A DNA stretch of 64,000 nucleotides from Prevotellaceae bacterium (lineage in GTDB: Bacteria > Bacteroidota > Bacteroidia > Bacteroidales > UBA932). Made by a program: the position numbers and the translations under genes. The notes under the pieces were generated by a model. The model made no database searches and was not told the origin of the DNA. It saw nothing but the letters and a program-made list of their open reading frames with translations. Below, in pieces: positions 1 through 15,718 of this stretch (its first letter is position 1; every line of letters starts with the position of its first letter). The stretch spans positions 1 through 64,000 of the forward strand of contig JAIRNF010000037.1 of the NCBI GenBank assembly GCA_031258195.1. The letters run 5' to 3'.

Positions 1-32
1 CCGCCGAAACGCTAGCCGGTATCGTTAGAGAA

Positions 33-290
33 ATGTCGATTTGGCTCTGGCGAAATCATCGCGATAAATGCGCTATTCGCGTCGCGATCGGCAAGCGATT
101 GGAAGAGCTGCGAAAAACGAGAGGTTTGAGCCAAGAGGAATTAGCGAGTAGAATAGGATTTAAGCAGCCGAATATCGCTCGTATAGAGAGCGCGAGATAC
201 GCGACTAGCATCGATATTCTCGGCTATATAGCCGACGCACTAAGCTGCCGAATAGAGCTGGTTCCGAACGAAGAGAAGCCCCCCGGCTAA
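33..290 (+). CDS. Cro/C1-type helix-turn-helix regulator, possibly 5' partial
   Basis: Small DNA-binding protein, probably an antitoxin-like or element-borne regulator. After a short N-terminal stretch, residues about 21-70 form a classic XRE/HigA helix-turn-helix (GKRLEELRKTRGLSQEELA, then KQPNIARIESARYATSIDIL). The reading frame stays open upstream to the window edge, so the ATG at 33 is only the first start visible and the gene may begin outside. No toxin partner is visible downstream, but one could lie to the left. The stop codon is inside a strong terminator hairpin. The sequence is noticeably richer in CG and CGA words than the restriction genes that follow, which suggests mosaic accessory DNA. 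Confidence 0.75.
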   Translation: MSIWLWRNHRDKCAIRVAIGKRLEELRKTRGLSQEELASRIGFKQPNIARIESARYATSIDILGYIADALSCRIELVPNEEKPPG

Positions 291-300
291 GGGGCTTCTC
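273..300 (+). terminator. Intrinsic terminator of the XRE gene
   Basis: GAGAAGCCCC (273-282) pairs perfectly with GGGGCTTCTC (291-300) around an 8-nt loop that contains the TAA stop codon. T-rich sequence follows after about 8 nt. Confidence 0.8.
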
Positions 301-324
301 CACTTTCCTTAATTTTTCACCTAC

Positions 325-352
325 TTTAAGCGGTCGAATTCGACCGCTTAAA
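325..352. repeat. Perfect 28-bp palindrome
   Basis: The half-site TTTAAGCGGTCGAA is followed directly by its exact reverse complement with no loop; the centre is GAATTC. It lies 2 bp past the stop codon of the recombinase remnant, so it may be its terminator. A gapless palindrome could also be a recombinase or operator site. Function is inferred only. Confidence 0.6.
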
Positions 353-354
353 AA

Positions 355-555
355 TTACTCTTTCTCAAGTTTACTCATTTCATCCGCTATTCTGCCGGAT
401 AGCATTTTGGCATATATTTGGGTCGTTTCAATCTTTTTGTGTCCTAACGCCTTTTGAGTCACTTCAAGCGATACGCCTTGATTAAGCATTACGGTAGTGG
501 CGAAAGTACATCTAGCCATGCGCGCGGTAAGATTCTTTTTTATCCCCGCGAGCAT
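355..555 (-). pseudogene. Tyrosine recombinase (integrase) C-terminal remnant
   Basis: The 66 residues match the end of the catalytic domain of Bacteroidetes phage-type integrases, which insert mobile elements by strand exchange. Visible landmarks are TARMARCTFATT, LGHKKIETTQIY with the nucleophile Tyr48, and an acidic C-terminal tail. The protein is far too short: the arm-binding and core-binding domains and the first catalytic Arg are missing. In the HxxR motif the His is replaced by Arg (position 12), and the residue after the second Arg, usually His, is Cys. It is therefore an inactive relic. It sits about 4 kb from the tRNA-Thr junction and supports the view that 1-4,650 is an old integrated element. 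Confidence 0.75.
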
Positions 556-569
556 GGCTATTTAGTTTT

Positions 570-605
570 GGTACAACAATCGGTACAGCTATTGGTACAA
601 CAAAT
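570..605. repeat. Three tandem 12-bp repeats
   Basis: Three adjacent units start at 570, 582 and 594: GGTACAACAATC, GGTACAGCTATT and GGTACAACAAAT. They lie just upstream of the recombinase remnant (minus strand) and before the methylase promoter region. They could be integrase arm-type sites, iterons or remnants of coding sequence; on the minus strand they read openly as a V(V/A)PI repeat. No function can be assigned. Confidence 0.6.
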
Positions 606-700
606 ATAGTGAAAATGGTTCTATATTTTGAAATATAACATATTTTTCTACACAAATTCACCGTAGAATACTATCTTTGTTGTAAATTAAGGTTAGTAAT

Positions 701-3316
701 ATGCAGGTTAAAGATATAATATCCAGCCTTGGATTTAAGCCCAAAGAGGGGGCGAATGGAGTATTTGAAAAAAAATACCCCATTTGTGATAATTATGCCA
801 TTGAAATAGATATTAAAAATGAGAATATTATTTATGGAGATAAAATAATCTGTGAGAATAAAACAACGCGGAATTTTTCTCAACCAGAAAATTTTGTCGT
901 ATTAGAATGTGTAGATCGTTTATTAGAAAAAGGATATAAGCCTCAAAATATAATTCTTGAAAAAACGTGGGGAGCCGGACATGGTACATCAGGAAGGCTA
1001 GACATCTGTGTTACGCGTGATGATGGCTCAGAATACTTATTAATTGAATGTAAAACATTTGGGAAAGAATTTGACAAAGAATTTACCCGAATGAGCAAAG
1101 ATGGAGGACAACTTTTTACATATTTCAAATTTAGCAATAAACCTGATATTTTAATGCTTTATGCTTCCGAATTGAAAGGAAAGAAAATAGCGTATAAGAA
1201 TGAAATTATAAAGATAGAGGATGATTATCGCTCAGGTGATGTTAAGGATTTCTATGAAAAATGGAATAAATTAACTAAAGATAATGGTGTTTTTGACGCA
1301 TGGGTAAAACCTTATTTTTTTGAGAGTAAAGCGTTAACTATTGATGAACTTGAAGAAATAAAACAAGAGGATAGTAGTTTTATATTTAACCGATTTCTTG
1401 AAATTTTACGTCATAATGTGGTTTCAGATAAGCCTAATGCCTTCAATAAAATTTTTACATTATTCTTATGCAAAATATATGATGAGAAAATAAATGAGGG
1501 TACTAATAATGAATTAGGTTTTCAATGGATTGAAGGTGTTGATGATGATATTTCTTTTCAACTACGCTTGACAGACCTATACAAAGAGGGAATGTGGGAG
1601 TTTTTAGAAAAGCGAGTAACGGACTTTTCAGAAGACGAGTTTGAACAGAAGTATAAAAACTTAGAAGATTCAGCGCGAAAAGAACTCTTAAAAGATTTCA
1701 AAAAAATTCGATTAGAAAAAAATAACGAATTTGCAATTAAAGAGGTTTATGACGAAAAATCATTTAAAGAGAATGCTAAAGTTGTTAAGCAAGTTGTCGA
1801 ATTGCTTCAGAAGTATAAAATACGTTACGCGAAAAAACAGCAATATCTTTCCGATTTCTTTGAATTACTGCTAACAACAGGACTCAAACAAGAGTCAGGA
1901 CAATTTTTCACGCCTGTTCCTATAGCTCAATTTATTATTAAAAGTTTACCTATTGATAGCATTGTTGAAACAAAACTTAAAGAAGGAAAACGAGACGAGT
2001 TATTGCCTTATATTATTGATTACGCGGCAGGTAGCGGTCATTTTATTACTGAGAGCATGCGCGAAATTCAACGATTGTTGACTGATTTTGACTTGAGTAA
2101 AGTTCGCGGTGATGCTAAAAAATTTGTTGAGACAGCACGGATAAGTCATTTCGATTGGGCATTGCGATACATTTATGGTATAGAAAAAGACTACCGCTTA
2201 GTAAAAGTTGGCAAAGTCGGTTGTTATCTTCATGGTGATGGATTGGCAAATGTTATTCACTCCGATGGGTTGGCAAATTTCAAACACCCAGACTACAAGG
2301 GTAAACTTAAAGTAATAGATAAGGATTTCCAACAAGAAAACAAACAATTCGATGTTGTAGTATCAAACCCTCCATATTCGGTATCCGCATTTAAAAACGC
2401 GGCAAGAGAATACTATAAAGACGAGAGTTTTGATTTATATGGACGACTAACAGATAATAGTTCGGAAATCGAATGTTTATTTGTTGAGCGTACAAAACAA
2501 CTTTTAAAGGATGGTGGAGTAGCAGGTATTATACTTCCAAGTTCTATATTGAGTAATGCCGGGATATACACAAAAGCTCGCGAAATAATTTTACAATATT
2601 TTGATATTATAGCTATTACTGAGTTAGGCTCTAATACTTTTATGGCTACAGGTACAAACACTGTAGTCCTTTTTCTAAAGAGGCGTAACAATTATGAAAG
2701 TATCAATATAAGAAAATCGGTAGATACATTCTTCACATCATTGAATGACGCGACAATTAACATTATTGAAAATCCTGTATCTAAATATGTAGGCTATGTT
2801 TGGGAAGGTCTTTTATTTAACGATTATATTTCTTTAATTAAAAAGGCTCCCAATAAAACCGTTGAAGAACATGAAATATATAAAGAGTATCGTAAGAAAA
2901 TAAAAGCGAAAGATGAAAAATCATTTTGGGATGCTCTTTTAGACATTGAAAAGGAAAAACTCTATTATTTTATTCTTGCTTATCCTCAAAAAGTAGTCTT
3001 AGTTAAGAGTGGAGAGAAAGATGCGGAAAAACGTTTTTTAGGGTATGAATTTTCAAACCGCAGAGGAAGTGAAGGCATACACCCCATACAAAGAGGAAAA
3101 GCCATAGATGAATGTACTCGGTTATTTGATGTTAAGGTTTTTGATAATCCTGAAAAGGCAAGCACATATATATACAAGGCATTTGCCGGAGACGCGGATT
3201 CTCTGATAGATAAAAGCGTAAGCGAAAATATATATCGCGTCAATTTAATCAATATGCTTACTTTTGACCGAAATGAATTTGAGAAAAATATTTCGCTTGT
3301 CATTAAAAAAAAGTGA
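701..3316 (+). CDS. BcgI-like fused restriction endonuclease / adenine-N6 DNA methyltransferase
   Basis: An 871-residue restriction-modification enzyme that should both methylate and cut DNA once directed by the specificity subunit encoded next to it. The N-terminal 180 residues carry a PD-(D/E)XK nuclease core: D101 in GRLDI, then E116 and K118 in LLIECK. Residues about 370-680 form an N6-adenine methylase (HsdM-type) domain, with QESGQFFTP, the SAM-binding motif DYAAGSGHF from D440, and the catalytic motif NPPY at 556-559. The remaining 190 residues are of unknown role. Nuclease plus methylase in one chain, with a separate S protein and no translocase subunit, is the BcgI (type IIB) plan rather than type I. 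The gene is AT-rich compared with the chromosome, consistent with transfer. GTGA overlap couples it to the S gene. A TATCTTTG box at 672-679 may be its promoter. Confidence 0.85.
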   Translation: MQVKDIISSLGFKPKEGANGVFEKKYPICDNYAIEIDIKNENIIYGDKIICENKTTRNFSQPENFVVLECVDRLLEKGYKPQNIILEKTWGAGHGTSGRLDICVTRDDGSEYLLIECKTFGKEFDKEFTRMSKDGGQLFTYFKFSNKPDILMLYASELKGKKIAYKNEIIKIEDDYRSGDVKDFYEKWNKLTKDNGVFDAWVKPYFFESKALTIDELEEIKQEDSSFIFNRFLEILRHNVVSDKPNAFNKIFTLFLCKIYDEKINEGTNNELGFQWIEGVDDDISFQLRLTDLYKEGMWEFLEKRVTDFSEDEFEQKYKNLEDSARKELLKDFKKIRLEKNNEFAIKEVYDEKSFKENAKVVKQVVELLQKYKIRYAKKQQYLSDFFELLLTTGLKQESGQFFTPVPIAQFIIKSLPIDSIVETKLKEGKRDELLPYIIDYAAGSGHFITESMREIQRLLTDFDLSKVRGDAKKFVETARISHFDWALRYIYGIEKDYRLVKVGKVGCYLHGDGLANVIHSDGLANFKHPDYKGKLKVIDKDFQQENKQFDVVVSNPPYSVSAFKNAAREYYKDESFDLYGRLTDNSSEIECLFVERTKQLLKDGGVAGIILPSSILSNAGIYTKAREIILQYFDIIAITELGSNTFMATGTNTVVLFLKRRNNYESINIRKSVDTFFTSLNDATINIIENPVSKYVGYVWEGLLFNDYISLIKKAPNKTVEEHEIYKEYRKKIKAKDEKSFWDALLDIEKEKLYYFILAYPQKVVLVKSGEKDAEKRFLGYEFSNRRGSEGIHPIQRGKAIDECTRLFDVKVFDNPEKASTYIYKAFAGDADSLIDKSVSENIYRVNLINMLTFDRNEFEKNISLVIKKK

Positions 3317-4323
3317 AAATTGAGAGTAAATGGGAGCAAATTAGGATTGAAAATTCTTTAACTAAAATCAACTGTGATGCACCTAAAATAGAAGAGTATA
3401 ATATACAAAAGAAAGGAATATATCCAGTTGTAACACAGGATGTATCTATAGAAATAGCAGGTTATACTAACAAAACTAATGCGATTACAGACTTACCAAT
3501 AGTCTTATTTGGAGATCATTCCTGTTGTGTTAAATATATTGATTATCCTTTTTTTAGAGGCGCCGATGGTACGGTCCTACTAAAGCCAAATCCTAAGTTT
3601 AATCCAAAATATTATTATTATTTAATTGAATATGTCGTCAATAACCTCATAGATAATACAAAATACGAGAGGCATAATAAATATCTAAAAGATCTATTTA
3701 TCCCTTTACCCCCAAAAAATATTCAAGAAAAGATAGTTACGGAAATTGAAAGGATAGAGGAAGAGAAAAAGGTAATGAGTATTAAGATAATAAAATTAAA
3801 TCAATCAATTCAAAAAATATTAAACTCATTATCAGGTACAACATTTAGAATAGATCAAATTTTGTCATTAGAATATGGTAGGTCGCTACCTGAACATAAA
3901 CGTGTTTCCGGTAATTACCCTGTGTTAGGTTCTAATGGAATTGTAGGGTATCATAATGAATATTTAATTGTTGGCCCCTCTGTTGTTGTTGGAAGAAAAG
4001 GATCAGCAGGTAAAGTGGTATGGGTTGAGAATAACAACTTTCCTATCGATACCACATTTTATGTGAAACTTTTAGACAATTCAAATTCTTTAAGACTAAT
4101 TTATTATATATTAAAAGGATTAAACCTCAATGGAACCGGCACAGGTGTTCCGGGATTAAATAGAAATGATGTTTATCAAAAAAGTATTATAATGCCGGAT
4201 AAGGAAAAGCAGCGAAAAATAGTATTAGAAATAGAAGCGTTAGAAAAACAGATTGTCGAAACGCGGAAAATTATTGATGATGGCGTGAAGCTGAAAAACG
4301 CGGTTCTGAAAAAATATTTATAG
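3313..4323 (+). CDS. hsdS: Type I/IIB restriction specificity subunit (HsdS-like)
   Basis: DNA target-recognition subunit for the preceding methylase-nuclease. Two target-recognition domains are visible: residues about 1-140 and about 175-290 (GNYPVLGSNGIVGY, GPSVVVGRKGSAG, GVPGLNR). Each is followed by a helical conserved region (around QEKIVTEIERIEEEKK and again KQRKIVLEIEALEKQ), the usual pseudo-symmetric HsdS layout that reads a bipartite site. It starts with GTG, and that codon overlaps the methylase stop (GTGA), so translation is coupled. At 336 residues it is short for HsdS, but both half-domains are present; the first domain is the more divergent. The specificity cannot be predicted. 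Confidence 0.88.
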   Translation: MKIESKWEQIRIENSLTKINCDAPKIEEYNIQKKGIYPVVTQDVSIEIAGYTNKTNAITDLPIVLFGDHSCCVKYIDYPFFRGADGTVLLKPNPKFNPKYYYYLIEYVVNNLIDNTKYERHNKYLKDLFIPLPPKNIQEKIVTEIERIEEEKKVMSIKIIKLNQSIQKILNSLSGTTFRIDQILSLEYGRSLPEHKRVSGNYPVLGSNGIVGYHNEYLIVGPSVVVGRKGSAGKVVWVENNNFPIDTTFYVKLLDNSNSLRLIYYILKGLNLNGTGTGVPGLNRNDVYQKSIIMPDKEKQRKIVLEIEALEKQIVETRKIIDDGVKLKNAVLKKYL

Positions 4324-4354
4324 CATAAGGAGATCGAATGACCTCCTTATGCTA
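4321..4354. terminator. Bidirectional terminator between hsdS and the S24 remnant
   Basis: TAGCATAAGGAG (4321-4332, including the hsdS stop) pairs perfectly with CTCCTTATGCTA (4343-4354) around a 10-nt loop. It lies between converging genes. Confidence 0.8.
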
Positions 4355-4378
4355 TACTTTATTACTATGAAAAAATAT

Positions 4379-4657
4379 CTACCTTCTAACAACCCTATCT
4401 ACAATCTTAATTACGTTATAAAGTTTCGCGACATCATTTAATTGTAAGGTAAAGTCCTCATACATAGGATTCAGTGAATGACATGTAATTTTTCCATTTT
4501 CTAAATCATGCTCTACTATTCGTTTAATAAGTATGCCTTCTTCTCGATGTACGATTACAAAATCCCAATCGTTTACGCGCAGCTTTGAAGTCCATAAATC
4601 TCGCTTAATATCCCTGCAAAGTAGCTTATCGCCTTCCTGATAGGAAGAGCCTCCCAC
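4379..4657 (-). pseudogene. C-terminal half of an S24-type repressor, truncated at the tRNA gene
   Basis: The residues after the first three (SYQEGDKLLCRDI, then DFVIVHREEGILIKRI and HSLNP) match the C-terminal S24/LexA-like domain of Bacteroidetes phage repressors. The DNA-binding N-terminus, the autocleavage site and the catalytic Ser region are absent. Similarity stops where the DNA becomes the 3' end of tRNA-Thr; the GTG 'start' at 4657 lies inside the tRNA. The simplest reading is that a repressor gene spanning the attachment site of a mobile element was cut when the element integrated. Expression is doubtful, as the frame merely runs on through the tRNA. Confidence 0.7.
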
Positions 4658-4719
4658 GGGATTCGAACCCGCTACCTGTTCGTTACGAATGAACTGCTCT
4701 ACCGCTGAGCTAAGGAGGC
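4648..4719 (-). tRNA. tRNA-Thr (anticodon CGT)
   Basis: The reverse strand folds as a complete cloverleaf of 72 nt: acceptor GCCTCCT/GGGAGGC (last pair T:G), D-arm GCTC/GAGC, anticodon loop TTCGTAA with anticodon CGT, 5-nt variable loop, T-arm with loop TTCGAAT, discriminator T, no encoded CCA. It should read the Thr codon ACG. The bottom pair of the anticodon stem (31:39) is an A-C mismatch, otherwise all stems pair. Its 3' end is the apparent integration site of the accessory DNA at 1-4,650. A TACCTTTG promoter box lies at 4744-4751 on the same strand. Confidence 0.92.
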
Positions 4720-4743
4720 AACGCTTTTCGTGAAAACGGAATA

Positions 4744-4751
4744 CAAAGGTA
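4744..4751 (-). promoter_or_regulatory. Probable -7 box of the tRNA-Thr promoter
   Basis: TACCTTTG on the minus strand matches the Bacteroidetes primary sigma -7 consensus TAnnTTTG, 25 bp before the tRNA start. No clear -33 TTTG box was found at the usual 19-21 bp, so this is tentative. Confidence 0.45.
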
Positions 4752-4800
4752 TAAAAAGTTTGAAAACCACTAACGCTTATTTATTAAGACGAAAAAACAA

Positions 4801-4825
4801 GAGCAGGTTTTAAGCTTACCTGCTC
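4801..4825 (-). terminator. Terminator downstream of the peroxiredoxin gene
   Basis: GAGCAGGT (4801-4808) pairs with ACCTGCTC (4818-4825) around a 9-nt loop; A/T-rich flanks on both sides. It lies 47 bp past the stop codon. Confidence 0.7.
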
Positions 4826-4871
4826 TCGTTTGAAAATATATAGAAAACCTAACCTAGAAAATCATAGCGGC

Positions 4872-5417
4872 TTATAGCGTATCTTCTCCCTTAACCCATC
4901 CGCAAGGGGTAAGCTTATCAATTTGAAGCGCATCCAACATACGGATAACTTCTTCCACGTTACGTCCAGCCGAAAGATCGTTAACGCTTACGTGGCGAAT
5001 AATTCCCTTAGGATCTACAATGTACGTTACGCGGTACGCCACCTTTTGCGATTCTTCTAGAATACCCAGCTCTTCAGCCAACGATTTAGAAGTATCGGCA
5101 AGCATAGGGAAGCGAAGCAGCTTTAATCCTGGGTGGCTGTTACGCCATGCCAGATGCGAATACTCAGAATCGGTAGAAGCCCCGATAAGCATTGCGTTAC
5201 GCTCGTGGAACTCTAAAAAGTGCTTGTTAAATGTTTCAATCTCGGTAGGGCATACAAACGTAAAGTCCATAGGCCACCAGAACATTACCATCCATTTTTC
5301 ACCCTCAACCGCCTTATTCAACGTAAGGTCGGTAAACTCTTTGCCCGGCTCGGTAGATACAACTGCTTTCTTGTTAAATTCGGGGAACTTTGATCCCACA
5401 GATAGAATTCTATTCAT
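4872..5417 (-). CDS. Peroxiredoxin, AhpC/TSA family
   Basis: Cytoplasmic thiol peroxidase that reduces hydrogen peroxide and organic hydroperoxides. The 181 residues hold the peroxidatic Cys in FTFVCPTEIETF (near residue 56), the conserved Arg region of the thioredoxin fold (RVTYIVDPKGIIRH), and a C-terminal Cys in TPCGW near residue 173 that could act as the resolving Cys. Length is usual for 2-Cys AhpC-type enzymes. The gene is transcribed alone and diverges from the membrane protein at 5777. Oxidative-stress control would be expected, but no operator can be named. The reducing partner (AhpF or thioredoxin) is not in this window. Confidence 0.9.
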   Translation of the reverse strand: MNRILSVGSKFPEFNKKAVVSTEPGKEFTDLTLNKAVEGEKWMVMFWWPMDFTFVCPTEIETFNKHFLEFHERNAMLIGASTDSEYSHLAWRNSHPGLKLLRFPMLADTSKSLAEELGILEESQKVAYRVTYIVDPKGIIRHVSVNDLSAGRNVEEVIRMLDALQIDKLTPCGWVKGEDTL

Positions 5418-5686
5418 GTCTTTTAATTTTTATATTGTTTTGATATGTTGTTTGTTCCGTACAAGTAAAACAGCAGTAAAAACCGTTTGTTCGTTTTTGG
5501 AATGCAAAGGTGTGTAAAAAGCCGAGTCATGTCAAATAGGTTGTTTTTATGGTAACATAGAGGAAGCTTATAAGTTGGATTGATAATGAAATGAGAAAGT
5601 ATAACAAGGTAGTAATACGATATTTATTGAGCTTTCGTATCATCCCATTTCCACATTACCTCATTTTTATATTACCACATTACTAT

Positions 5687-5719
5687 ATTGCTTCGTTATT
5701 GTATTTATAGCTATCTTTG
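5687..5719 (+). promoter_or_regulatory. Candidate promoter for the gene at 5777
   Basis: TATCTTTG at 5712-5719 matches the Bacteroidetes -7 box; ATTG at 5687-5690 is at the right distance for the -33 box. The leader would be about 50 nt. The rest of the 359-bp divergent intergenic region (5418-5776) holds only short A/T-rich near-repeats such as CCACATTACC at 5651 and TACCACATTAC at 5673. Confidence 0.4.
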
Positions 5720-5776
5720 AGGGACGGGTAAAAGCGGTTACGCTACAACCTTCATACGAAATACGAAAGATAGCAA

Positions 5777-6463
5777 ATGGGTAACGATACAAAAAAAGCC
5801 AAAGTCTTTAAGCTAATGATAGGGCTTTTTATAGGGCTTCTGGTTATTGGCTACGGGTGGACAAGAAACAGCCCGAACACAACAGACAGCCCGCTTGATA
5901 ACGAACCTCGCAACACTCCGGCGGCACAAACCGGTAGCAGCAGTACGGCGTTTGAGCAGGCTGTATATGATGTTATGAGAGGTTTTAGCGAGCAAGATGC
6001 TGACATTTTAAACCGGTTGATATCAGATGATATTGGGCTGGTTGTACTTTTCAGGCGCGGTGTGTACGATACTTACGATAAAGTAGCCCGGCTCGATTTT
6101 AAAAAGCCTGTACCCGAGTACTGGCAGTATCCTGACGACACATACGAGCATACGCTCATACGATATGAAAGCTTACCAGCCTACAGCTGCGATACCGAAA
6201 GCTGGGATAAAACAGGTCTGTACTGCGATACGGTAACGATAGACAACCTGCTCTCTCGAACGGCAGAGAATTTGGTAAGGTACGAGGGCGATGTTGTTAA
6301 TATTACAGACGAAGATATTCGCTCTTATAAAGAGCTGGAGCGGAACAGCCGCAGAGTTGTACTGTCTGCCGGAGATAAAGAGCTGATATTTTACCTTACG
6401 GCGGTTAACGGAAAGTGGTACTTTACTATTCTTGATAGGGTAACCAGCGATTGTAGCGCATAA
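5777..6463 (+). CDS. Hypothetical membrane-anchored protein
   Basis: Not recognised. Of 228 residues, 1-10 are polar and basic, about 11-28 form one hydrophobic helix (KLMIGLFIGLLVIGYGW), 30-52 are a Pro/Thr/Asn-rich linker, and the rest is a soluble domain with many Asp, Tyr and Arg residues. This fits a type II membrane protein or an uncleaved signal anchor with a periplasmic domain. There is no lipobox Cys. The C-terminus (KELIFYLTAVNGKWYFTILDRV) looks like the last strands of an NTF2- or SnoaL-like cone, a guess from pattern only. It stands alone between a divergent peroxiredoxin gene and a palindromic repeat element. Confidence 0.65.
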   Translation: MGNDTKKAKVFKLMIGLFIGLLVIGYGWTRNSPNTTDSPLDNEPRNTPAAQTGSSSTAFEQAVYDVMRGFSEQDADILNRLISDDIGLVVLFRRGVYDTYDKVARLDFKKPVPEYWQYPDDTYEHTLIRYESLPAYSCDTESWDKTGLYCDTVTIDNLLSRTAENLVRYEGDVVNITDEDIRSYKELERNSRRVVLSAGDKELIFYLTAVNGKWYFTILDRVTSDCSA

Positions 6464-6496
6464 ATAGAATGGCATAGAATGGCACAAAACCACCTA

Positions 6497-6587
6497 CTGC
6501 GTCATTTCGAGCGAAGCGAGAAATCTCCTATTTTATGGGTGAGGACTTCTATTCAGGAGATTTCTCGCTTCGCTCGAAATGACGCAG
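6497..6587. repeat. REP/MITE-like palindrome, copy 1
   Basis: Perfect 33-bp arms at 6497-6529 and 6555-6587 around a 25-nt loop. The arm core is TCATTTCGAGCGAAGCGAGA. It lies between two plus-strand genes, after a gene 3' end, and has the longest arms of the ten copies in the window. Confidence 0.9.
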
Positions 6588-6611
6588 CATTAATAAATAC
6601 AGATACGTACA

Positions 6612-7552
6612 ATGAATAAAAAAATAGCATTGCTAGCAGCGTTAATACTACCGTTTTTGCTCTTTGTCCAGCAACAAAAAGAAGTGTTGATAGTAGATAC
6701 CATGCATGCTGTTACGCGCATTGTAAAGAACAGCTATAAGCCGTTACTTAAGCGGGCTCTGGGGTATCAACCCGAGGCGATATACGTAGAGTACGTTATG
6801 CCCGACGACGTAGCTAGCTGGAGCTACCTGAAAGATGGATGGAACAAGGGATATAGAGAGTTCTATAAGCTGTCAGATTCGTTGAAAGTTACCTATAGCT
6901 TTCAACCGTCTGAGCTAGCTGGGCTGCTGGCAAAAAAACAGCAGAGCTCACTAAAAACGAGTTGGACGAAATCATTACATCTTTTGGCTACCAAAGAGAT
7001 TATGCAAATTACTTGTACTATAGGTATATTAAGCAATACGGGGTAAACGGCAGCAAAAAATCGTTAGGTGACGAAAGCCCCGATCTTAGCTTTAAGCTTG
7101 CTCTACAGCTTGGTATTACAAGGCTATATGCTATCGATGATCAGCAGACAGTGGCAGAGTATAATAAAGCCTTTAATAAGTGCATAAAAGATGGCGAGAT
7201 GAACGGAGATACTAAAAGGCTGCAAAAGTTGGATAGAAAAGGTACCAGAGCCCGGGTAATGCCTGCTTTGTTTGGAAGGCTGGGGATACATACCAATAAA
7301 CCGAAATCGCTTGAACGAATGCATACCATTAATTCGGTTGGGTATATTACTCACGAGAGTTCAGGGTGCGCGTCTTGCCGAGAGCATTGGAACGCGCGCA
7401 ACGCTACAATTGCGAAAAACCTGATACAGCAGCTGAAACAAAACCCCTACCAAAAGAGTATCGTTATTATTGGGGCGGGGCACATTATAGGGCTGAAAGA
7501 GGAGTTACAAAGGCAATATCCAACAATAAAAGTAAAGTTGTTGGTCGAGTAG
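6612..7552 (+). pseudogene. DUF5694-like protein interrupted by a -1 frameshift at an A7 run
   Basis: Two overlapping frames form one protein of about 313 residues. The first frame (6612-7046) gives a signal peptide or membrane anchor and EVLIVDTMHAV; the second (open from well before its ATG at 6962) gives KSLGDESPDLSF, LGITRLYAIDD and a C-terminal IVIIGAGHIIGL. This resembles DUF5694 proteins, distant relatives of the TraB/Tiki fold. The frames join at seven As (6932-6938), which in the zero frame read A AAA AAA, a sequence on which a -1 slip restores the long frame exactly. It may be a pseudogene, an assembly error, or programmed frameshifting. The N-terminus places it in the envelope; no function is established. 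Confidence 0.65.
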
Positions 7553-13459: not shown

Positions 13460-15718
13460 ATGAGAAAGAGGGTTTTACTACTATTTTTATTAGCGGCAAA
13501 TGCTGCGTATGCTCAGCAGAGAACAGAATCGGATTCAACAAATTTATTAGAAGAAGCAACTGTACATGCTTTTAAAACTATAGAGTCGGCAAGAGAGCAG
13601 CCTGCCTCAGTATCGGTATTATCCGGTAAATCCTTAGAAAATAATGGGGTTGATGTACCTACTAAGCTAAGTGCTATAGTTCCTAACTTTTATATGCCCG
13701 AATACGGATCAAAGCTAACATCGGCTATCTATATTAGAGGTGTGGGTTCACGCATGAACGACCCTGCCGTTGGGCTATACGTCGATAATATTCCTTTTCT
13801 CGATAAAAGTATGTATAACTTCGACTACTACGCATTGTCGAGAATAGAGGTGTTAAGAGGTCCGCAGGGCTCGTTATATGGTCGTAACTCTATGGGCGGT
13901 ATTATTAACCTGCATACCTTGTCGCCGCTATACTACCATGGAGGCAGCGCAAGCGTTTCGTATGGCAATGCGAATACGCTGTGCGCCAACATTACCCGAT
14001 CGACCAAGCTGAGCGATAGGGTAGGGCTTTTGATAGGCTTGAACTACGTACAGTCTGATGGGTTTTTTACCAACCAGTATAATGGAGAAAATACAGATGA
14101 AGTAAAATCGAGAGGAGTGCGAGTCCGCCTCGATTGGAAGATAAGCGATCGCTGGCTACTTAACTATTCGCTTAGTGCAGAAAAGAGTAAGCAAAACGGA
14201 TATCCTTACGGTTTGGTGGATGCCGACGGTAACGTTGGCGATATCGCCTATAACGACGATATGGGCTACGAACGCCAGTGGTTGGTAAACAGCCTTTACT
14301 GGCAGTATCGTGGACGGGGATTTTCTTTAGCAGGCGCGATATCGTACCAATATTTTGACGATGATATGACGCTTGATCAGGATTTTACTACAGAAAATCT
14401 ATTTACTATAAGCCAACGGCAACGCCAGAACGCGTACACGCAGGAGGTAGTAGTTAAAGCTGCTAACGAACGTAAGTATCAATGGTTATTCGGGACTTTC
14501 GGTTTTTATAAATCGCTTAAAACCGATGCCCCTGTATTGCTTAAGCAAGATTTTTTTTCAAGCATATTTCCTCCGAGTGCCCCGGTAGCTGTTATAGAAG
14601 ATTGCCCCACCTCCGGATTTTATGATACTCCTTCATACGGTCTTTCTTTCTTTCATCAATCAACTATTCGAAATTTTTTGGCTGAAGGTCTCAGTATATC
14701 TGCGGGTTTACGCTATGATTATGAAAAAATCTCGATAAAACACAATACACGCGCAGAAAATCTGGCTATGCACATATCAATACCGCCTGCACCGCCTAGA
14801 CCTCCTATTGAGATGGACACTTTTGTAGGAGTTATTATTAAAGGAGATGACAAGCAATCATTTAGCCAAGTATCGCCAAAGTTTTCGCTTAACTACGATA
14901 TAAACAGAACGGATAGAGTTTATGCCTCGGTCAGTCGTGGTTATCGCTCGGGCGGGTACAATATTCAGCTGTTTTCCGATTTAGTCAGCGACGCTTTGCA
15001 AGAAGTTGCTATGAGCATGCAGCCCGGAGTTCAGGAAAGGGATATTGATGAAAGTATGATAGCCTATAAGCCAGAATATAGCTGGAACTACGAAGTAGGC
15101 GGTCGTGTTTGCTTTATGGAGGACCGCTTGCGCTTTGATGCTTCTGCATTCTATATTGATAGCCGAAACCAGCAGATTGCGCAATTTGTGCCAAGCGGGT
15201 TAGGGCGTGTAATGCGCAATGCCGGACACTCGGAAAGCTATGGTGTGGAGTTATCAGCCATGGCGCATTTCAACGGGTTATCTGCAACCCTAAGCTACGG
15301 CTATACACATGCTACATTTTTGAAGTACACCGATTCTATCAGGATAAATGGAGGTGTTGAACCGATTGACTATGAAGGAAAGTATGTACCTTTTGTGCCG
15401 CGGCATATACTTTCGGTAAGGGCAGACTATACGTTTACGTTTAGTAATACTTGGATTGATAAGCTTACTATCGGGGCGCAATATCAGGGTGCGGGACGGA
15501 TTTATTTTACCGAGGCTAACGATGCAAAGCAGAATTTCTATAGCCTGCTAAATGGCGATGTAACGCTAGAGAAAAGCGGATTCTCGCTAAAGCTTTGGAT
15601 GAAGAACATTACCGATGCCGACTATAAGCTGTTCTACTTTAAGGGGCTTAAGAATAACGCGTTTGCGCAAAAAGGTAATCCGTTACAGCCGGGCGCTACT
15701 TTAAGGTTTAGCTGGTAG
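13460..15718 (+). CDS. TonB-dependent outer-membrane receptor
   Basis: Energised outer-membrane transporter of 752 residues. A signal peptide ends near AYAQQ (residue about 19), followed by a plug domain (about 45-165) with SVLSGKSLENNG, SAIYIRGVGSRMND and the plug-end signature IEVLRGPQGSLYGRNSMGG, then a beta-barrel with many aromatic strands that ends in Trp (LRFSW). There is no carboxypeptidase-like N-terminal extension and no SusD partner, so it is a FepA/FhuA-type receptor rather than SusC. The substrate is unknown; a siderophore, vitamin or metal complex is possible. It is flanked by intergenic DNA on both sides, so it is probably monocistronic. Confidence 0.9.
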   Translation: MRKRVLLLFLLAANAAYAQQRTESDSTNLLEEATVHAFKTIESAREQPASVSVLSGKSLENNGVDVPTKLSAIVPNFYMPEYGSKLTSAIYIRGVGSRMNDPAVGLYVDNIPFLDKSMYNFDYYALSRIEVLRGPQGSLYGRNSMGGIINLHTLSPLYYHGGSASVSYGNANTLCANITRSTKLSDRVGLLIGLNYVQSDGFFTNQYNGENTDEVKSRGVRVRLDWKISDRWLLNYSLSAEKSKQNGYPYGLVDADGNVGDIAYNDDMGYERQWLVNSLYWQYRGRGFSLAGAISYQYFDDDMTLDQDFTTENLFTISQRQRQNAYTQEVVVKAANERKYQWLFGTFGFYKSLKTDAPVLLKQDFFSSIFPPSAPVAVIEDCPTSGFYDTPSYGLSFFHQSTIRNFLAEGLSISAGLRYDYEKISIKHNTRAENLAMHISIPPAPPRPPIEMDTFVGVIIKGDDKQSFSQVSPKFSLNYDINRTDRVYASVSRGYRSGGYNIQLFSDLVSDALQEVAMSMQPGVQERDIDESMIAYKPEYSWNYEVGGRVCFMEDRLRFDASAFYIDSRNQQIAQFVPSGLGRVMRNAGHSESYGVELSAMAHFNGLSATLSYGYTHATFLKYTDSIRINGGVEPIDYEGKYVPFVPRHILSVRADYTFTFSNTWIDKLTIGAQYQGAGRIYFTEANDAKQNFYSLLNGDVTLEKSGFSLKLWMKNITDADYKLFYFKGLKNNAFAQKGNPLQPGATLRFSW

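Follow-up and report, generated by a model that had tools for sequence, protein, structure and literature searches.

A decayed genomic island with a truncated S24-type repressor at the 3' end of tRNA-Thr(CGT)

The window analyzed here, a stretch of 64,000 nucleotides (G000:C44:1-64000), covers the leftmost part of a 76.9-kb contig in a draft genome of 2.85 Mb (61 contigs, 99.88% complete). A tRNA-Thr(CGT) gene was annotated by ARAGORN at positions 4647 to 4719 on the minus strand. The window starts within an XRE-type HTH regulator gene, whose 3' part occupies positions 1 to 290 on the plus strand and whose 5' part probably lies on another contig, C29. The original prediction had placed a recombinase relic, a restriction system, and a repressor stump to the left of the tRNA, and this layout was accurate.

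The recombinase relic (positions 355 to 555, minus strand) comprises only the last ~60 residues of a tyrosine integrase. Its 66-aa ORF matched Pfam Phage_integrase (E = 6.2e-10) and covered about the last 48 positions of the profile. The HxxRH box reads RxxRC, with both histidines replaced; the sequence is ARMARCTFATT in the relic and HMARHTFATT in its two closest relatives, which come from one genome of the same family. These relatives, located near tRNA-Asp and tRNA-Lys, have shortened frames too, so this integrase type has been seen to decay near tRNA genes more than once. In a shortened integrase frame near tRNA-Lys (L115, G096:C177, 404 to 796), the start and end parts seem to have been joined by an internal deletion.

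Two restriction genes follow on the plus strand. The first (701 to 3316) encodes a type IIG restriction enzyme-methyltransferase of 871 aa (PADLOC REase_MTase_IIG, E = 3.1e-203; Pfam N6_Mtase and Eco57I), and the second (3313 to 4323) encodes the specificity, or target-recognition, part of 336 aa (Pfam Methylase_S, E = 2.4e-19). In the first frame, a TGA stop stands one base behind a run of eight A residues (3305 to 3312), and the GTG start of the second frame overlaps this TGA by 4 nt. All nine homologous loci (L105 to L113), which are every locus returned by the homologue search except our own, read through the junction of methylase and recognition parts with no stop; one of them, L110, covers only a few codons before its contig ends. 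By eye, an A-run of 8 to 10 residues was present at the junction in five of these relatives, several of which had 9 or 10, and absent in four. The split at the A8 run (window 3296 to 3320), as read from one assembly, may reflect length variation, slippage, or simple decay, and the A-run is a cheap and testable candidate for the first of these.

The repressor stump lies between the restriction genes and the tRNA. It consists of ~88 codons and a stop (4379 to 4645, minus strand) from the C terminus of an XRE/S24 phage-type repressor, with the N-terminal HTH, the linker, and the catalytic GDSM region missing. A consensus scan found a terminator-like hairpin of 17 pairs with a T-rich tail just 3' of the stump (4319 to 4356, minus strand). 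The corresponding 92-aa ORF (4657 to 4379, minus strand) showed a weak match to Pfam Peptidase_S24 (20.7 bits against a cutoff of 23.3; E = 3.4e-4). Against whole S24 repressors, the stump was 53 to 65% identical in 11 loci and 59% identical to a paralogue of full length that the same genome carries on contig C30. These homologues, 11 loci from the viral and genome collections measured stop to stop plus the paralogue, are whole XRE/S24 proteins of roughly 225 to 270 residues. In the alignment with the 12 whole homologues, the stump starts at SYQEGD, behind the FEVxGDSM region, which in the S24 family carries the nucleophilic serine. Homology begins at the codons at 4645 to 4640 (S-Y), from the second base beyond the ARAGORN end of the tRNA; the original prediction had also placed the first recognizable residues after the acceptor stem. 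Likewise, the frame upstream of the stump is the tRNA itself (read-through ...EQVAGSNPVGGS).

The predicted integrated element ending at the tRNA 3' end was supported by a direct repeat. A genome search with the tRNA and the 6 nt beyond it found three places, namely, the query itself, a 42-bp copy at 100% identity on contig C29 (1155 to 1196), and a 79% match at another tRNA-Thr. The 42-bp repeat at the window locus (4641 to 4682, minus strand), the right attachment site, consists of 36 nt of the tRNA 3' part and 6 nt beyond. Its exact second copy provides the second tRNA 3' end that the original prediction had proposed to look for, and it lies at a compatible contig end. Further copies of the tRNA-Thr 3' end were sought on C29 and in the window, and only short chance matches were obtained. 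The intact tRNA, the integration target, stands at the right boundary of the island, where the right repeat copy completes the functional tRNA. Since both 42-bp copies are still identical, the insertion may be recent, which fits a long decay less well.

The contig break is attributable to the HTH gene, because a 161-bp stretch of it occurs as an exact repeat twice in the genome, once at the window end and once split over contigs C28 and C3. Of this stretch, 77 bp are common to all four contig ends, and 119 bp are shared on either side. The first 77 bases of C29 are the reverse complement of window positions 1 to 77, so the two contigs can be joined. We infer the join of C29 to the window from this overlap, and C28 terminates in the same 77 bases. 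When joined, C29 and the window give an element of 5,801 bp including both repeats, and the orientation of the repeats and the flanks are compatible with a sensible empty site. From the left, the joined island contains the repeat, ~300 bp, a hicB-like gene, a hicA-like gene, the HTH gene, the relic of the integrase, both restriction genes, the stump of the S24 repressor, and, with the complete tRNA, the second repeat. The 42-bp direct repeat marks the two ends of the island. The hicB-like gene (C29 854 to 456) is HicB-like by PHROGs; its neighbor (C29 430 to 236), which we take to be hicA from its position, size, and sequence, had no match in NCBIfam and PADLOC searches. Except for the frame split in the restriction gene, the restriction-modification genes and the hicA/hicB-like pair have kept their open reading frames. 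Outside the island, an ORF on C29 (L004, 2910 to 3797) resembles a phage replication initiator fused to the end of a DnaC-like loader, possibly via an internal deletion.

A join of the window to C28 was also considered. It is compatible with the assembly but accounts for neither the 42-bp repeat nor the missing repressor half. The modules on both sides of the C29 join, the hicB tail together with the stretch downstream of it (C29 735 to 913) and the HTH end (window 1 to 308), recur together in one other place, contig C42, at 94% and 92% identity, respectively. Over the 60 bp preceding the shared 77-mer, C28 and C29 alike had 17 mismatches to C42, and this comparison was neutral.

The C42 locus adjoins tRNA-His and a whole tyrosine integrase of 419 aa. 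Within the 12 kb examined (L016, G000:C42:58000-70000), positions 4536 to 6893 hold the tRNA-His, the integrase, a hicB-derived remnant, and the HTH gene, and the locus is a sister island remnant. A search of these 12 kb for a direct repeat of the 3' end of tRNA-His found none. At its 3' end, the HTH copy on C42 matches the window better than the C3 copy. The HTH and hicB-derived modules are present at two tRNA loci of one genome, which means that such islands share parts. The second copy of the HTH gene (G000:C28:16619-16695 and C3:10865-11138) adjoins, on C3, genes of the phage portal and minor-head types, which lie next to a shortened, fructose-bisphosphate aldolase-like gene. The C3 locus is probably a degenerate prophage.

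We examined the proposal that the attachment site lay inside the repressor gene, so that integration would part the two halves of the repressor and excision would restore the gene, making immunity dependent on integration. In keeping with such an arrangement, only a few bases separate the cut in the stump from the tRNA 3' end, and the S24 frame continues through the repeat. There is also a precedent in mycobacteriophage BPs, whose attP is located inside the repressor gene (PMC4557955). At the other boundary, however, the second tRNA 3' copy joins ~300 bp with neither a repressor half nor long ORFs, whereas the original prediction had placed the N-terminal half of the S24 gene there and had named its absence as grounds for giving up the lysogeny switch. 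Followed upstream of the repeat in the joined circle, the S24 frame meets a stop after only 16 codons, with nothing like an HTH or linker. The codons covered by the repeat are tRNA-derived and stand in place of the conserved FEVxGDSM catalytic region, and thus the circle would restore no working repressor. A profile built from nine homologous N-terminal halves was then searched against the whole 99.9%-complete assembly. It yielded no orphan half; its only hits were the N half belonging to the C30 paralogue and five weaker ones that covered no more than the HTH part (positions 1 to 80 of 142). The N-terminal half is therefore missing from the genome and not displaced. Moreover, the only integrase sequence of the island is the relic at 355 to 555, ~3.8 kb from the stump, with no functional integrase adjoining. 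In BPs, 33 C-terminal residues are lost on integration, and the N-terminal part that remains is expressed as the repressor (PMC4557955), whereas only the C-terminal part is left here. Without the HTH and the GDSM region, the remaining piece would not be an active repressor in the prophage form; judged from its domains, integration here would leave nothing DNA-binding, unlike in BPs. Taken together, these results make an integration-linked switch of lysogeny control extremely improbable, and the refutation holds independently of which contig joins window base 1.

A short match, TCCTA (at least 5 bp and possibly 6), is shared by the coding side of the S24 stump and the chromosomal flank that follows the tRNA, and it suits a deletion at such a site. 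It could also have served as the core (TTCCTA) at which an ancestral phage integrase crossed over within the S24 gene, with a later recombination with a second element replacing the boundary of the N half by a normal tRNA 3' repeat. A crossover of this kind would account for the exact cut, but a microhomology deletion accounts for the same match. In addition, none of the 20 S24-bearing loci outside this genome (L047 to L066) contained tRNA-Thr; two contained other tRNAs (L057 and L065), and 18 contained no tRNA. Likewise, no tRNA was present in the ten S24 loci, whole or partial, that came from the search of 148 genomes and the paralogue. We therefore consider a crossover within the S24 gene very unlikely. 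It is also very unlikely that the locus is the scar, after a second recombination, of an ancestral phage that attached to tRNA-Thr(CGT) through a short core in its S24 repressor gene and so severed the catalytic from the DNA-binding domain on integration.

Next, we compared the tRNA neighborhoods of related genomes. The tRNA query matched 46 of 59 genomes (own included), and 16 neighborhoods in relatives, 15 with tRNA-Thr(CGT) and one at tRNA-Lys, were compared; these are relatives at the family level, none of the same genus. None of the 16 neighborhoods contained a match to the S24 piece, to the restriction genes, or to the right-flank genes. Gene order around tRNA-Thr(CGT) was not conserved, and the flanking genes differed in the 15 contexts. 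A homologue of the C29 gene at 13787 to 14818, 27 to 29% identical, adjoins the tRNA in three of the 15 contexts (L070, L071, and L073). The comparison bears on whether the stump is a chromosomal gene beside tRNA-Thr rather than part of the island. It does adjoin a conserved tRNA gene, but it lies within the stretch bounded by the two repeats, and S24 homologues (E up to 1e-6) occurred in only nine of 148 related genomes, the own one included. A resident chromosomal gene is hardly credible and was rejected on the grounds that none of the 16 relatives' loci carries the stump and that its homologues are whole phage-type repressors.

Altogether, these results very probably reflect a small degenerate genomic island of ~5.8 kb that a tyrosine integrase inserted at the 3' end of tRNA-Thr(CGT) and that lost the N-terminal half of its repressor to a deletion bordering on the attachment site. 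The integrase is reduced to its C-terminal end and the repressor to its C-terminal part. Under this explanation, a tyrosine integrase would have inserted the island at the tRNA 3' end, with the right repeat completing the tRNA, and the deletion in the repressor gene would have fused what was left of it to the attachment site through the short match. The island would now be fixed cargo, consisting of restriction-modification and toxin-antitoxin genes, and would be neither independently mobile nor lysogeny-switching. Once the other border was found on a second contig, what had seemed a split-repressor switch was thus corrected to a decayed island.

Several known systems can be compared with this locus. 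BPs and its relatives (PMC4557955) share with it a repressor gene interrupted at the attachment site; they differ in that BPs keeps the N-terminal repressor, whereas here the N-terminal part with the HTH and GDSM region is absent from the genome and the C terminus remains. The XRE/S24 repressors of Bacteroidota, such as those of Leeuwenhoekiella phage vB_LaeS_Arctus_1 (H1) and Bacteroides phage BF1-TP2 (H2), show ~40 to 65% identity over the C-terminal part, but they are whole genes, and only a stump is present here. Type IIG enzymes of the PADLOC REase_MTase_IIG class share the series of a nuclease-like N terminus, an N6-adenine methylase, and a recognition domain; they form one enzyme, whereas here all the parts are present on two overlapping frames. 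Islands and satellites of tyrosine integrases that target tRNA genes are an established general class. The island shares with them the tRNA 3' target, a repeat at both borders, a tRNA completed by the island, defense and toxin-antitoxin genes, and an integrase remnant. It differs from typical members in that its integrase is a relic, it is very small, a truncated repressor stands at its border, and its ends lie on different draft contigs. The feature is real but ordinary, a decayed island of a common type.
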